This document shows positions 58,831 through 63,676 of a stretch of 64,000 bases of DNA, piece after piece. Below the pieces are notes generated by a model that had not been told where the DNA came from, did no database searches, and saw only the letters and a program-made list of their open reading frames with translations. The first letter of the stretch is position 1. Each line of letters begins with the position of its first letter. This DNA is from Asticcacaulis sp. SL142 (lineage in GTDB: Bacteria > Pseudomonadota > Alphaproteobacteria > Caulobacterales > Caulobacteraceae): NCBI RefSeq assembly GCF_026625745.1, contig NZ_CP113061.1, positions 1,327,501 through 1,391,500 of the forward strand, read 5' to 3'. Made by a program: the position numbers and the translations under genes.

Positions 58831-59124
58831 ATGCCCCCCCCCTCCGATGATGACATCCTTGTCCGCGCTATCCTGAGCCTTCAGTCCGAGGCTGAGGTGA
58901 AGGCGTTTCTGGACGACCTATGTACACCGTCGGAACTGCGCGCCTTTGCCGAGCGGTTCAAAGTCGCGCGCCTGCTGGACGAAGGGCAGTCGTCCTACCG
59001 CGAAATCTCCGAAAAGACCGGAGCGTCAACCACCACCGTTACCCGCGTGGCGCGTTTCCTGCGCGACATGCCTCATCAAGGTTACCGGCGTGTGCTGGAC
59101 CGCCTCAAAGCCGATAAAGAGTAG
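58831..59124 (+). CDS. yerC: YerC/YecD family TrpR-related DNA-binding protein
   Basis: A 97-residue helical protein with the TrpR-superfamily HTH: FLDDLCTPSELRAFAERFKVARLLDEGQSSYREISEKTGASTTTVTRVARFL. It is followed by hisG after 6 bases, so it is part of the his transcript. The family lacks an established ligand; adjacency makes a his-operon regulator likely. The inverted repeat just upstream could be its own operator. Confidence 0.9.
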   Translation: MPPPSDDDILVRAILSLQSEAEVKAFLDDLCTPSELRAFAERFKVARLLDEGQSSYREISEKTGASTTTVTRVARFLRDMPHQGYRRVLDRLKADKE

Positions 59125-59130
59125 AGCCTA

Positions 59131-60012
59131 ATGTCTGAACCCCGTCTTCGCATTGCCGTCCAAAAGTCCGGCCGTCTGGCTGACCGTTCGCTGGAGCTGA
59201 TTTCCGGCGCGGGCCTGCGCGTCATGAAGGGTGCCAATGAGCTGCTTTACCGGATCGAGAACCAGCCGATCGATCTTCTGCGCGTGCGTGACGACGACAT
59301 CCCGACCTTTGTGGCCGATGGCGTGGCCGAACTGGGGATCGTCGGCTACAATGTTCTGGCCGAGCACTTCCCTGATGCCGACCTTGAAGCCATGATCGTG
59401 CAGCGTCTGGGCTTTGGGTCGTGTACGCTTAAAATCGCCGTACCGAACGAGGCAAACTACACCGGCCCGCAGTGGTTGGAAGGCAAGCGCATCGCCACCT
59501 CCTATCCCAATGTGCTGGGTGCCTGGCTCAAAACCCACGGCATTACGGCGGAGATTGTCGAAATGCGCGGCGCGGTCGAAGTCGCTCCCCGCATGAAGAT
59601 CGCCCACGCCATTTGCGATCTGGTCTCGACCGGCGCAACATTAGAGGCCAACGGCATGAAGGCGACCGATCTGGTGCTGAAATCCGAAGCCGTGCTGGTT
59701 AAGGCCCCTCATGCGCCGGCCCCGGAACTGGCCCACACCTATGACATGCTGCTGCGTCGTTTCGATGGTGTTACGGCTTCGACTGGCGCCAAGTACGTCA
59801 TGATGAATGCGCCGCGTGAGCATCTGAGCGAGATCATCGAACTGATCCCCGGTGCTGATGCGCCGACGATCATGCAACTGGCCGGTCGCGAAGACACGGT
59901 CGCCGTCCATGCCGTCTGTCAGGAAAATGTGTTCTGGGACACGCTGGATAAGCTGAAAACCGCCGGGGCCTCCGCGATCCTCGTCCTGCCGATCGAGAAA
60001 ATGATGAAATAG
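59131..60012 (+). CDS. hisG: ATP phosphoribosyltransferase, long form
   Basis: First step of histidine synthesis. The 293-residue product has LRIAVQKSGRLADRS, DDDIPTFVADGVAELGIVGYNVL, and the PRPP loop CDLVSTGATLEANGM, plus a C-terminal ACT-like regulatory domain (about 225-290, LIPGADAPTIMQLAGREDTVAVHAVCQENVFWDTLDKLK). The length and this domain mark the long, histidine-inhibited form, so a HisZ partner is not required. Confidence 0.95.
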   Translation: MSEPRLRIAVQKSGRLADRSLELISGAGLRVMKGANELLYRIENQPIDLLRVRDDDIPTFVADGVAELGIVGYNVLAEHFPDADLEAMIVQRLGFGSCTLKIAVPNEANYTGPQWLEGKRIATSYPNVLGAWLKTHGITAEIVEMRGAVEVAPRMKIAHAICDLVSTGATLEANGMKATDLVLKSEAVLVKAPHAPAPELAHTYDMLLRRFDGVTASTGAKYVMMNAPREHLSEIIELIPGADAPTIMQLAGREDTVAVHAVCQENVFWDTLDKLKTAGASAILVLPIEKMMK

Positions 60013-60028
60013 GTGTCACGGACACCTT

Positions 60029-61339
60029 ATGAGTAAAACGATGAAAACCTTTGTCTGGAAAAACCTAAGCACGACCGAGCGCAAAGCCGCCCTCGCCCGC
60101 CCCGCCAATCGGCGTGATACGCGCGTGCTGGAGACGGTGCGCACGATATTCGATGATGTCGAAGCACGCGGGTTTGCGGCTGTGTCTGACTGGGCGATCA
60201 AGCTGGACGGCCACGCCCCTAAGCGGGTCGACCTGACTGCCGCAACCGTTGATGCCGCCCGCGCCGCCCTTTCCCGCGAAGACCTTGAGGCAATGGAACT
60301 GGCGGTCGAAAATGTGCGCGCTTTTCAGGAAGCCGAGTTGCCGAGCGACGGCCCCATCATCGCCCCGAAACCGGGCCTGAGCCTGCAACGGGTGTATCGC
60401 CCGATCACCACCGCCGGACTCTATATTCCGGGGGGATTGGCACCGCTGTTTTCGACCCTGATCATGACCGCCGTGCCGGCTTTGGTCGCCAAAGTCCCCA
60501 ACCGCGTTGCCATCACCCCGCCCGCCAAAGACGGCTCGCTACACCCGATGATGATCGCGACAGCCGCGGCTTCTGGACTCGACAGTCTGTGGTCAGTCGG
60601 GGGGGCGCACGGCATTGCAGCATTGGCCACCGGCGCGCTTGAGGGCGTACCTGCGGCCGATAAACTATTCGGGCCGGGCAACAAATATGTGACTGAGGCC
60701 AAGCGTCAGGCGACCGAGCGCGTCTCCGGCATCGCCATCGACATGCCCGCAGGCCCCTCGGAACTGCTGGTCATTGCCGACAAAACCGCCAACGTGAAAC
60801 TGGTCGCCGCCGACCTTCTCAGTCAGGCCGAACACGATGCAGACGCGCAAGTTGTGCTGGTCGCCTTTGATGCCGGTATCGCCGCCGCCATTGCGGCAGA
60901 GGTCGAAGCCCAGGTATCACGCCTGCCGCGTGAGATCATTGCCCGCGCCTCCTTGGAGCAGGCCCGCCTGTTCATCGTCGATGATCTTGACGCGGCGGCG
61001 GAGGTGTCCAACCTCTACGGCCCCGAACACCTGGCCATTCAGGTCGCAGATGTCGATGCGATTATCCCTAACCTGACCGCGGCGGGGACGATTTTTGCGG
61101 GCACCTACGCGGCGGAAACCTTTGGTGATTACGCGGCGGGCCCCAGCCACGTTCTGCCGACCGATGGCGCGGCCAAGGCCTGGGACGGCATCACCGTGCG
61201 CTCGTACCTGACCAGTTTTGTGATACAGCGCGCCACCAAGGCCGGGGCCGCCGCCATTGCGCCCGCCGCCGCCCGCCTCGCCCGCCTCGAAGGCCTCGAA
61301 GCCCATGCTTTGGCGGCGGACTTCAGGCTGGAGGTTTAA
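60029..61339 (+). CDS. hisD: Histidinol dehydrogenase
   Basis: Zn- and NAD-dependent oxidation of histidinol to histidine, the last two steps. The 436-residue protein has LYIPGGLAPLFSTLIM, GAHGIAALATG, the NAD/Zn region KLFGPGNKYVTEAKR, AGPSELLVIAD, LLSQAEHDADAQ with Zn ligands, GPEHLAIQV, and GDYAAGPSHVLPT. An ATG at 60041 is an alternative start. Its last codons (AADFRLEV, stop) recur in frame 93 bases downstream. GGAGG near the end of the gene (61330-61334) can serve as ribosome binding site for the small ORF that begins right after the stop. Confidence 0.95.
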   Translation: MSKTMKTFVWKNLSTTERKAALARPANRRDTRVLETVRTIFDDVEARGFAAVSDWAIKLDGHAPKRVDLTAATVDAARAALSREDLEAMELAVENVRAFQEAELPSDGPIIAPKPGLSLQRVYRPITTAGLYIPGGLAPLFSTLIMTAVPALVAKVPNRVAITPPAKDGSLHPMMIATAAASGLDSLWSVGGAHGIAALATGALEGVPAADKLFGPGNKYVTEAKRQATERVSGIAIDMPAGPSELLVIADKTANVKLVAADLLSQAEHDADAQVVLVAFDAGIAAAIAAEVEAQVSRLPREIIARASLEQARLFIVDDLDAAAEVSNLYGPEHLAIQVADVDAIIPNLTAAGTIFAGTYAAETFGDYAAGPSHVLPTDGAAKAWDGITVRSYLTSFVIQRATKAGAAAIAPAAARLARLEGLEAHALAADFRLEV

Positions 61340-61432
61340 ATGATACGTCTTAACTGCGCCGCCGTTTTTTTGAGTTGCGCTAACGCTTCGCTGCTTGAGC
61401 GCGGGGCCGCCGACTTTAGATTGGAAGTTTAA
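61340..61432 (+). CDS. 30-codon ORF ending in a copy of the hisD C-terminus
   Basis: An ATG directly follows the hisD stop codon (TAAATG), 5 bases after GGAGG, in the hisD frame. It opens a 30-residue frame whose last eight residues, AADFRLEV, and stop repeat the end of hisD. The DNA differs from the hisD end at six positions, all synonymous. Its middle contains a small hairpin repeat (61377-61402). Its end holds GGAAG (61423-61427), which is the ribosome binding site for the next gene. It may be a translated spacer, a leader peptide, or a relic of recombination. Confidence 0.5.
   Translation: MIRLNCAAVFLSCANASLLERGAADFRLEV
61377..61402. repeat. Hairpin repeat with conserved 16-base loop (second copy)
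   Basis: GCGCT (61377-61381), loop AACGCTTCGCTGCTTG, AGCGC (61398-61402). The copy inside the repeat at 5625-5650 has the same 5-16-5 geometry, 14 of 16 loop bases identical, and a compensatory change at the third stem pair (C-G there, G-C here). Confidence 0.55.
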
Positions 61433-61435
61433 AAA

Positions 61436-62935
61436 ATGTTCGCGTCACCGTTTTCATCCCTGACCGCCGCCACGTCTGGCCTCGAAGGCTCGCCGCCGTC
61501 GCTGGAGCCGTTGCGTGAGCGCATGGCCGAGCTTTACGGCGTCGAGCCCTATCAGCTTTTGGTCACCCGCGGCGCGTCCCACGCCATGGAAATCCTGCTG
61601 CGCCGCTTACGGTTGCATGGCCATGAAACCATCCTGGCTGACACGGGCTTAAGCGAAAAATCCTATTATCTGGAAAGCCTGTGCAATGTGTACGGCCTCC
61701 AGATCAAGTCGCCGCCGTCGAACGCCTTGGGGGCCAAAAGTGCGGGGCTTTACCTGATCGACAACCCGCGTTTGCCGGACGGTAAGGCCTGGAGCGTCGA
61801 GGCTGCGCGCGCACTGGCGGTCGATATTTTCCCAACGCTGTTGGTGGTCGATGAAAGCTATTTCGATGCGGTTGATGCCCAGAGCCTGACCGAACTGACG
61901 CGGACTGAGACCAATGTCATCGTCTTCAAAAGCCTGTCTTATCTATACGGTATCGGCGGCGCACGAGTCGGTGCCCTGATCGCGGGTGCCAAGACTCTGG
62001 CCGGCTTGACGCGGTACTGTGAGCCCTATCCCCTGCCCACGCCGTCGATCAAAGCGGCTGAACTGGTGCTGTCGCCGTCGCGTCAGATCAATGTCGACGC
62101 GCGCATCGCTTTAGTCCGCTCGGAACAGTCGCGCCTGCGCCACAAACTGGCCGAGAGCAAGGCTCTGGCCCATTTTGAGCTGAACGACGGCCCGTTTATC
62201 CACTTAAAACCGATGGATCTGATCCGCACCCAGACGGCCTTAAAACGCTTTGGCATCAGTGCGCGCAACGCCTATGACGGCTTGCTGCTGCCGATGGGCG
62301 ACGCGGCCTTCAATGACCGGATTCTGAACGCCCTTGGGGTGGTCTCCGACGCCAAACCGACCCGTAGAGGCGAGTTCCTGCGCGACACCAAAGAGACTCG
62401 CATTTCGGTCCTGGTCGACCTCGATAACCCAAAGCCGATCAGCATTTCCACCGGCGTTGGCTTCTTTGACCATATGCTCGATCAGGTCGCCTCTCACGGC
62501 GGGTTTTCGATGCAAGTGGCCTGCGAAGGTGACCTGCACATCGACGCCCACCATACGGTCGAAGATACCATGTTGGCGGTCGGTGCGGCGCTGAAACAAG
62601 CGCTGGGTGATCGCATCGGCATGGCCCGCTTTGGCTTTGTCCTGCCGATGGATGAGACCGAAGCCAAGGTCAGCGTCGATCTGGGCGGGCGGCCATTCTG
62701 CGTGTTTAAGGGTGAGTTCGAGGCCACCCATATCGGTGATTATCAGACCGAAATGACCGCCCATGCCTTCCGGTCTTTGTCGGAAACGCTTGGAGCCTCG
62801 ATCCATGTCGAGGTTTCCGGCGGCAATGATCACCATAAGACCGAGGCCTGTTTCAAGGCGCTGGGCCGCGCCCTGCGACAAGCTACGCGGATTGAAGGGG
62901 ATAGCCTGCCGTCAACGAAAGGGATGTTGGCCTAG
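61436..62935 (+). CDS. hisB: Degenerate HisC-like domain fused to imidazoleglycerol-phosphate dehydratase
   Basis: Residues about 1-302 follow histidinol-phosphate aminotransferase (LLVTRGASHAMEILLRRL; YCEPYPLPTPSIKAAELVLSP), but the PLP lysine is replaced by Tyr169 (SLSYLYGIGGARVG) and the Asn of NPxNPTG by Leu113 (NPRLPDG). The N-terminal arm with the usual NENPY motif is also missing. D139 and R177 remain. So this domain is probably inactive. Residues about 308-499 are complete HisB: FFDHML (H346), HHTVEDT (H372-T378), HHKTEA (H466-E470), the Mn ligands that dehydrate imidazoleglycerol phosphate. GGAAG lies 8 bases before the ATG. hisH overlaps the stop by 1 base. A functional HisC must be encoded elsewhere. 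Confidence 0.9.
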   Translation: MFASPFSSLTAATSGLEGSPPSLEPLRERMAELYGVEPYQLLVTRGASHAMEILLRRLRLHGHETILADTGLSEKSYYLESLCNVYGLQIKSPPSNALGAKSAGLYLIDNPRLPDGKAWSVEAARALAVDIFPTLLVVDESYFDAVDAQSLTELTRTETNVIVFKSLSYLYGIGGARVGALIAGAKTLAGLTRYCEPYPLPTPSIKAAELVLSPSRQINVDARIALVRSEQSRLRHKLAESKALAHFELNDGPFIHLKPMDLIRTQTALKRFGISARNAYDGLLLPMGDAAFNDRILNALGVVSDAKPTRRGEFLRDTKETRISVLVDLDNPKPISISTGVGFFDHMLDQVASHGGFSMQVACEGDLHIDAHHTVEDTMLAVGAALKQALGDRIGMARFGFVLPMDETEAKVSVDLGGRPFCVFKGEFEATHIGDYQTEMTAHAFRSLSETLGASIHVEVSGGNDHHKTEACFKALGRALRQATRIEGDSLPSTKGMLA

Positions 62936-63528
62936 TGTCCAGAGTCGTTGTTGTAGAACTGGGTTGCGCCAATACAGCGTCCGTTCTGTTTGCGCTGGAG
63001 CGCTTAGGGGCTGAGGCCGTACTGTCGTCGGATGCGGCTGAGATCGCGTCGGCACCTAAGCTGGTCCTGCCGGGGGTGGGTGCGGCCGGTTTTGCCATGT
63101 CTCAGGCGCGCGAACTGGGTCTGGTTGAGGTATTACGCGGCTATGAGCGTCCGCTGTTAGGGGTATGTCTCGGCCAGCAATTGCTGTTTGAGGCGTCCGA
63201 CGAAGGCGATGTCGAATGCCTGGGGCTTATTCCGGGTAAGGTCACCAAAATGGTCGTCCCCGATGGCTATGTCGTGCCGCACATGGGCTGGAACACGCTG
63301 GAACCGCTCAAGGCCGATCCGCTTAATGACGACGTGGCCGCGGGCGATTATGCCTATTTCGTCCATAGTTTTGTGTGTCCGATCAACGACTATACCCTGA
63401 CCCAATCGACTTACGGCGAACCGTTTGCGGCCATGGTGCGCAAAGGTAACGTCTGGGGCTGCCAGTTCCACCCGGAACGGTCGTCGGCCACCGGTGCCAA
63501 GATTTTGGAGAATTTTTTGAGGCTATGA
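62935..63528 (+). CDS. hisH: Imidazole glycerol phosphate synthase glutaminase subunit
   Basis: Class I glutamine amidotransferase that feeds ammonia to HisF. The 197-residue protein has LVLPGVGAAGFAM, the nucleophile Cys in LLGVCLGQQLLFE, the YFVHSF segment and the catalytic His/Glu in CQFHPERS. The start is GTG, overlapping the hisB stop (TAGTG). It is followed by a 142-base inverted-repeat element before hisA. Confidence 0.94.
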   Translation: MSRVVVVELGCANTASVLFALERLGAEAVLSSDAAEIASAPKLVLPGVGAAGFAMSQARELGLVEVLRGYERPLLGVCLGQQLLFEASDEGDVECLGLIPGKVTKMVVPDGYVVPHMGWNTLEPLKADPLNDDVAAGDYAYFVHSFVCPINDYTLTQSTYGEPFAAMVRKGNVWGCQFHPERSSATGAKILENFLRL

Positions 63529-63534
63529 CGTTTT

Positions 63535-63676
63535 AGAACTCCCCCTCTTGGAGGGGGAGCTTGATGGCGATGCCTGCATCGACATCAAGAGGGGGTAAAA
63601 ACCCCGCCACCTGATTACCCCCTCTGGCCTTAAGCTCGCGCTTAAAGCCAGCTCCCCCTGCAACAGGGGGAGTTCT
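63535..63676. repeat. MITE-like element inside the his operon (family C)
   Basis: Perfect 12-bp terminal inverted repeats AGAACTCCCCCT (63535-63546) and AGGGGGAGTTCT (63665-63676). Internal hairpins CTCCCCCTC-TTG-GAGGGGGAG at the left and CTCCCCCTG-CAA-CAGGGGGAG at the right bracket a CTTGATG/CATCAAG stem. It has no coding capacity. Its right end supplies GGGGGAG, which lies 5 bases before the first hisA ATG. Confidence 0.8.

Follow-up and report, generated by a model that had tools for sequence, protein, structure and literature searches.

Why should the only imidazoleglycerol-phosphate dehydratase (HisB) of a bacterium be preceded, on the same polypeptide, by an aminotransferase fold from which the catalytic lysine has gone? 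The question is raised by a fused gene in the window, by which we mean the whole 64,000-nucleotide stretch of Asticcacaulis sp. SL142 DNA that was analysed (Table 1). A first-pass annotation had placed a HisC-fold domain at residues 1 to 302, ahead of HisB, and Pfam, phmmer (to E. coli HisC, 1fg3), AlphaFold2 and Foldseek all agree with this. The Pfam match to Aminotran_1_2 (PF00155; 52.4 bits) spans residues 23 to 257 of the fused protein, and that to IGPD (PF00475; 190.8 bits) spans residues 339 to 480 and takes in positions 1 to 144 of 144, that is, the complete domain. The AlphaFold2 model has a mean pLDDT of 90.2 (only ca. 62 over residues 1 to 20), and its top Foldseek matches are HisC (7szp and 1gex) and IGPD structures. 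Scored with TIGR01141 (hisC), the fused protein reaches 84.6 bits and falls below the cut-off of 276.55. The fused HisB is the sole IGPD in each of the 24 genomes of the genus that were searched for one, the window's own included.

In the phmmer alignment to 1fg3 (E 5e-12), Tyr169 falls on K214, Leu113 on N157, Asp139 on D184, Arg177 on R222 and Lys165 on residue 210; K214, N157, D184 and R222 are what we take to be the functional residues of the E. coli enzyme. The earlier reading that the PLP lysine and the Asn of NPNNPTG have been replaced, while D139 and R177 are retained, is thereby borne out. So is the missing N-terminal arm: a TAA codon stands in frame two codons 5′ of the ATG, and the arm is therefore truly absent. 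Across the 24 genomes of the genus that carry the gene, position 169 is Tyr in 11 and Phe in 13, which rules out a sequencing error as the source of the lysine loss, and position 113 is Leu, Met or Gln; the equivalents of Tyr55 and of the C-terminal Arg (284) are also replaced in the alignment. Other positions have been kept, namely D139, S166 and S168 in 24/24 genomes and R177, Y142 and G46 in 23/24. In the dead domain of one genome (G005), R177, Y142 and G46 have been lost, and the domain is still present. Given that the equivalents of the lysine, Asn157, Tyr55 and the C-terminal Arg (284) have all been replaced, catalysis by the fused domain of this genus appears very unlikely.

Table 1. 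The fused gene, its landmark residues and its neighbours, in window positions.
Feature	Positions	Strand	Basis
hisG, long form with C-terminal domain	59131..60012	+	Profile scan
hisD, upstream neighbour	60029..61339	+	TIGR00069, 421.6 bits
Partial, degenerate repeat of the hisD 3′ end, 29 nt, directly before the fused gene	61405..61433	+	Local alignment to 61312-61340
Fused gene, dead HisC domain + HisB, 499 aa	61436..62935	+	ORF, Pfam, NCBIfam, AF2, Foldseek
HisC-fold domain without catalytic lysine, residues 1-302	61436..62341	+	PF00155, phmmer to 1fg3, AF2, Foldseek
Leu113, at N157 of NPNNPTG	61772..61774	+	phmmer alignment; N in 33/34 intact fused domains
Asp139, retained, D184 equivalent	61850..61852	+	24/24 in genus
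Lys165, Arg position of intact HisC, not Schiff-base lysine	61928..61930	+	K in 24/24 of genus; R in 34/34 intact fused domains
Tyr169, at PLP lysine position (E. coli HisC K214)	61940..61942	+	phmmer alignment; K in 34/34 intact fused domains
Arg177, retained, R222 equivalent	61964..61966	+	23/24 in genus; Gln in G005
Glu196, new residue common to dead domains; intact domains have Pro or Ala	62021..62023	+	Alignment
Pro253, new residue common to dead domains; Asn in intact	62192..62194	+	Alignment
Imidazoleglycerol-phosphate dehydratase (HisB), about residues 309-499	62360..62932	+	Pfam, NCBIfam
hisH	62935..63528	+	Profile scan

Within the window, a run of his genes in one direction leads from hisG and hisD through the fused gene to hisH and the beginning of an apparent hisA (called from its sequence). 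The short copy of the hisD end could provide the ribosome-binding site of the fused gene. Immediately 5′ of hisG, at 58831-59124, lies a TrpR-related gene of the YerC/YecD family (TIGR02531, 74.5 bits), which is a possible candidate for a his regulator (compare HisR in the available part of PMC9413887). Between hisH and hisA, at 63535-63676, there is an inverted repeat whose 27-nt arms are 93% complementary and 88 nt apart; the pattern has no second exact match within the window.

A search with the whole fused protein against 61 genomes recovered the full-length fusion in 24 of the 25 genomes of the window's genus (its own included) and also in other families; in the genus, G004 gave a weak aminotransferase match only. 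A profile search was then applied to 348 genomes sampled from the order, 320 of which gave a match at E 1e-60. Thirty-five genomes of the order carry an intact HisC-HisB, 31 of them classed by the lysine and four (G364, G256, G069 and G236) on their TIGR01141 score alone. In a scan of named genomes, in which the best 80 of at least 592 candidates were used, the lysine is present in 12 loci, from Marinicaulis, a Brevundimonas MAG, Sphingomicrobium, Robiginitomaculum, an alphaproteobacterial MAG, two Balneolaceae and five Bacteroidales. Lysine-bearing HisC-HisB thus occurs outside the Proteobacteria, in Bacteroidales (L092, L093, L094, L137 and L149) and Balneolaceae (L107 and L114). When 34 intact domains were aligned (31 from the order sample and three named), the equivalents of K169, D139, Y142 and R177 were found in 34/34 and that of the Asn in 33/34, Marinicaulis having Ser; relatives such as L045 and L084 have the active-site residues of both HisC and HisB.

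A recognisable HisC domain without the lysine, which we call dead, was found in 72 genomes: 24 of the window's genus (g1), 32 of g3 (apparently Brevundimonas), G033, 12 of family f3 and three of f5. Three further g3 genomes (G114, G262 and G354) gave no match at the profile threshold. In 25 f4 genomes a remnant is left, with an open frame of at least 210 codons ahead of HisB; the profile still hits part of the HisC C-terminal region in 18 of these, and the open frame beyond that match is a putative coding region. Finally, in 25 genomes (11 of f3 and 14 of f4) the HisC domain is gone and HisD is joined directly to HisB (L234-L237, L239-L244, L246; L253, L256-L258, L260, L266, L269-L271, L280, L282, L285, L286, L288), a named example being the Maricaulis locus L121:2657-4549. 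These class counts exclude G202, G278 and G284 (contig ends), G255 (broken frames) and G242 (a different protein). The order also has a second type of HisB; those of its matches that were listed under 252 bits have frames of 197-224 aa and no fusion. In all 157 assessed genomes the fused type of HisB is preceded by an N-terminal partner or by a long open frame.

The alignment also bears on Lys165, which the first-pass annotation had singled out as the residue that might yet prove to be a functional Schiff-base lysine. The idea that the domain remains PLP-dependent by way of K165, or has taken up some new chemistry, might draw on the invariance of this residue in the genus (24/24). However, position 165 is Arg in 34/34 intact fused domains and in 32/32 g3 dead domains, so K165 reads as a conservative change four residues before the lysine position, and as a Schiff-base lysine it is ruled out by sequence. 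With the equivalents of N157, Y55 and the C-terminal Arg replaced as well, we consider continued or novel catalysis exceedingly improbable.

If the fused domain does not transaminate, which protein makes histidinol phosphate? Taking as a stand-alone HisC any protein above the TIGR01141 cut-off, we found the separate intact hisC that had been suggested as a thing to look for in 24/24 genomes of the window's genus; that of the window's own genome (L006) scores 300.7 bits and contains NPANPTG, DEAY and FSK. As far as sequence can tell, the transamination step can be carried out in the genus by this second enzyme. A stand-alone HisC passes in 70/72 dead-fusion genomes, the misses being G322 (65% complete) and G127 (275.6 bits), and in 25/25 HisD-HisB and 25/25 remnant genomes, and in only 8/35 intact-fusion genomes. 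The other 27 of these 35 have no HisC above the cut-off apart from the fused domain, which is therefore presumably active there. This link with the stand-alone HisC is a clustered pattern with few independent events; a sign test of intact fusion against lack of a stand-alone HisC has one starred pair (four on all branches), and significance is unreachable.

The place of the dead domains was examined in a HisC tree of 63 domains built by a quick method, for which reason its starred supports call for some caution. In this tree a single clade (99, starred) unites the dead domains of g1, g3 and f3. It nests within a larger one (99, starred) that takes in 20 of the 21 intact fused domains included from Alphaproteobacteria, whereas the seven stand-alone HisCs, the window genome's among them, form a separate clade (99, starred). 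The HisC parts of six Bacteroidales and Balneolaceae fusions make up a clade of their own (97, starred), so that transfer and separate fusion are both possible. The best N-terminal NCBIfam match is TIGR01140 (98.8 bits), but a CobD/CobC origin was ruled out, since the tree (which held no CobD sequence) and the shared HisB fusion put the domain inside fused HisC. Descent from fused HisC is thus supported by tree and domain order alike; because the homologues show an apparently bifunctional HisC-HisB at the start of the fusion's history, the dead domain is a derived state.

Two residues that the dead domains share bear on how many times catalysis was lost. E196 is found in 65/65 dead domains (24 of g1, 32 of g3 and 9 of f3, the f3 alignment having taken 9 of the 12) and in 0/34 intact ones, and P253 is likewise present in 65/65 where intact domains have Asn (34/34); among seven further dead domains outside this set, E196 occurs in three and P253 in four. 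Most cases are therefore consistent with one loss in a shared ancestor. In one f5 genome (G132, locus L247) the fused HisC is near full length, with Ser at the lysine position and Pro at the Arg position, and a stand-alone HisC lies ca. 3 kb from the fusion on the same contig. This looks like a separate, younger loss, the basis being the change of K to S, the retention of P196 and the absence of P253. An intact fused HisC is present in G144 (L190, g3) and in the Brevundimonas MAG (L084), against a dead one in 32 g3 genomes; since the HisC tree sets the two apart from the dead g3 domains, they may represent a transferred copy. A HisB tree of 109 rows is too short and too poorly resolved to show how many losses there were, and its starred branches force only one change to the dead state. 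In the HisC tree the branch to the dead clade is 1.14 and that to the window's genus 1.41, while branches within the genus are 0.13-0.45, which suggests a burst of change and later constraint.

The first-pass annotation had held that the domain is maintained and not decaying, on the strength of the retained D139 and R177 and of its smooth open frame. The conclusion stands but the argument from the frame does not, because stops or frameshifts would also kill the essential HisB downstream and an open frame is therefore no proof of maintenance. What supports it is dN/dS (Nei-Gojobori). In 15 close, hand-picked pairs from the genus, the median is 0.049 (0.023-0.157) for the dead domain and 0.035 for HisB; it is 0.071 (0.042-0.138) for hisD, from 14 pairs and from part of the gene (which is incomplete in the loci), and 0.076 (0.049-0.146) for hisH. 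Neutral decay would bring dN near dS, and in these pairs dN of the dead domain is far lower (0.007-0.126, versus a dS of 0.28-0.98). Furthermore, 97/302 positions of the dead domain are invariant across 24 genus genomes, and in the subclade to which the window belongs the domain's dN roughly equals that of HisB or is lower. For intact fusions the median dN/dS is 0.081, from 8 of 13 pairs (dS being undefined in five). On these estimates the dead domain of the window's genus is under strong purifying selection and is not a fossil there; guarding about as tight as that of working enzymes makes a new job for it probable.

It could still be argued that the domain is useless, that its frame is open solely on account of the HisB behind it, and that constraint does no more than avoid toxic misfolding. 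Stepwise loss in other lineages fits such a history, as does the open frame, which is to be expected regardless. Rates are also raised in places: the g3 dead domain has a median dN/dS of ca. 0.23 (14 pairs), and protein-distance ratios to HisB are 3.2-3.3 in all three dead groups measured, as opposed to 2.15 in intact domains. Even within the genus, three pairs have a domain dN of 6 to 12 times the HisB value, 4/14 pairs have a domain dN/dS above that of hisD, and of the 82 positions conserved in intact domains just 36 persist in 22 or more of the 24 members. However, the range of dN/dS in the genus (which is similar to those of hisD and hisH), the invariant positions and the high-confidence predicted fold all speak against a passive relic, and we think it distinctly unlikely that the domain is one.

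Of the roles put forward at the outset (scaffold, sensor or oligomerisation unit), we favour scaffold and oligomerisation. The dead domain most likely serves as a structural module of HisB, since none of the 157 assessed genomes has this type of HisB without a partner or long open frame, the fold has been kept, and both HisC and HisB form oligomers (HisC is a dimer and HisB a 24-mer). In outline, an ancestral HisC-HisB fusion would, judged by its residues, have placed two consecutive steps on one chain, IGP dehydration followed by imidazoleacetol-phosphate transamination. In the presence of a stand-alone HisC, the fused copy lost its lysine, its substrate residues and its N-terminal arm, and the dead domain would now act without chemistry by helping HisB to fold and assemble, possibly through HisC-type dimer contacts retained between HisB subunits. 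This whole account, a non-catalytic module mostly for folding and assembly that descends from HisC-HisB, we put at somewhat better than even. The raised rates of dead domains (in the ratio to HisB, in g3 and in some genus pairs) count against it, and the 25 HisD-HisB and 25 remnant-only genomes indicate that HisB needs no HisC fold as such.

The main rival to the structural role is a ligand-sensing pseudoenzyme, in which the emptied PLP/phosphate pocket would bind a phosphorylated metabolite, or non-covalent PLP or PMP, and so tune HisB. The candidate contacts D139, S166, S168, R177, Y142 and G46, which we take to be phosphate and ring contacts, each persist in at least 23 of the 24 genomes, and the median dN/dS of the domain is no higher than that of hisD or hisH. 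Yet three of these residues have gone from G005, which retains the domain, Pro occupies position 177 in 9/9 aligned f3 dead domains, and some of the retained pocket residues may be structural; on balance we regard sensing as unlikely. That the domain has become a new regulatory pseudoenzyme, with its phosphate pocket kept, a pathway metabolite sensed and HisB under allosteric control, is in our judgement doubtful. Alternatively, the dead domain might pair with the stand-alone HisC, much as LCB1 pairs with LCB2, and hold it beside HisB. The domain does have a HisC-type fold, and an active-looking stand-alone HisC accompanies it in 24/24 genus genomes. However, that HisC belongs to a distant clade, and the N-terminal arm, which in HisC wraps the partner subunit, is missing here. 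Despite the precedent in PMC2748086 of a PLP-dependent subunit accompanied by a homologue that does not depend on PLP, we consider such recruitment highly improbable.

Several known systems resemble the fused protein, each in part. With HisC (E. coli 1fg3/1gex, TIGR01141) the domain shares its fold, the D184 and R222 equivalents and its descent; it differs in lacking the PLP lysine, the NPNNPTG Asn and the N-terminal arm and in scoring below the TIGR01141 cut-off. As in gammaproteobacterial HisNB (NF003937, the best NCBIfam match of the HisB part), an N-terminal partner is joined to the same type of HisB, but the partner in HisNB is a phosphatase and here it is a dead aminotransferase; PF00155 stands where a HAD/DDDD phosphatase would be, and NF003937 covers only the HisB part (279 versus a cut-off of 443). 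The lysine-bearing HisC-HisB of relatives, Bacteroidales and Balneolaceae has an identical domain order, whereas the HisC active-site residues have been lost in the window's fusion. LCB1 of serine palmitoyltransferase also lacks the PLP lysine. In the part of PMC2748086 at hand, LCB1 is likewise a homologue of PLP enzymes that is not itself PLP-dependent, and the window's genome encodes a lysine-less PLP fold and an active-looking homologue (L006) with which it might pair; LCB1, in contrast, is a subunit in its own right whose partner is an active paralogue, and it belongs to another enzyme and another pathway. HisZ, for its part, is a dead relative of histidyl-tRNA synthetase and differs in being a separate subunit with another fold that acts on HisG. 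Any likeness lies in HisZ being a regulatory protein of the histidine pathway, the regulatory partner of HisG.

In the open-access literature that was searched we found no description of a HisC-HisB fusion, a HisD-HisB fusion or a dead HisC domain. The earlier remark that the fusion was undescribed holds to that extent, but intact and apparently bifunctional HisC-HisB homologues do exist, and their architecture may already be present in automatic databases. The available part of a 2007 survey of his fusions names hisA/hisF, hisIE, hisHF, hisNB and hisIED, and none with HisC (PMC1963479). The portion of PMC8305728 at hand reports hisNB in all its Bacteroidetes and, in Balneolota, a HisB with a short N-terminal domain without known relatives; it does not describe the HisC-HisB of Bacteroidales or Balneolaceae, and its short Balneolota domain does not fit L107 and L114, in which the HisC domain is long. 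In the accessible parts of PMC6432763, PMC3485032, PMC6143707, PMC7696456 and PMC3828012, joined his names denote operon orders, a deletion or unrelated uses, and the 'hisB domain' in those of PMC3901274 and PMC4607527 involves no HisC-HisB or HisD-HisB fusion.

HisC-HisB and HisD-HisB are thus additions to the his gene fusions. In genomes such as these, the number of transaminases would seem open to misjudgement by automatic annotation. If the regulatory reading were true, histidine synthesis would have, next to HisZ, a second dead enzyme that has become a controller, and a single order would hold living examples of its intact, dying, dead, shrunken and deleted stages. What the order offers is a series arranged by descent, from an apparently bifunctional fusion through a dead but guarded domain and a remnant to HisD-HisB, in which the replacing gene has been identified; such a series would allow a direct test of why cells retain a dead enzyme domain.
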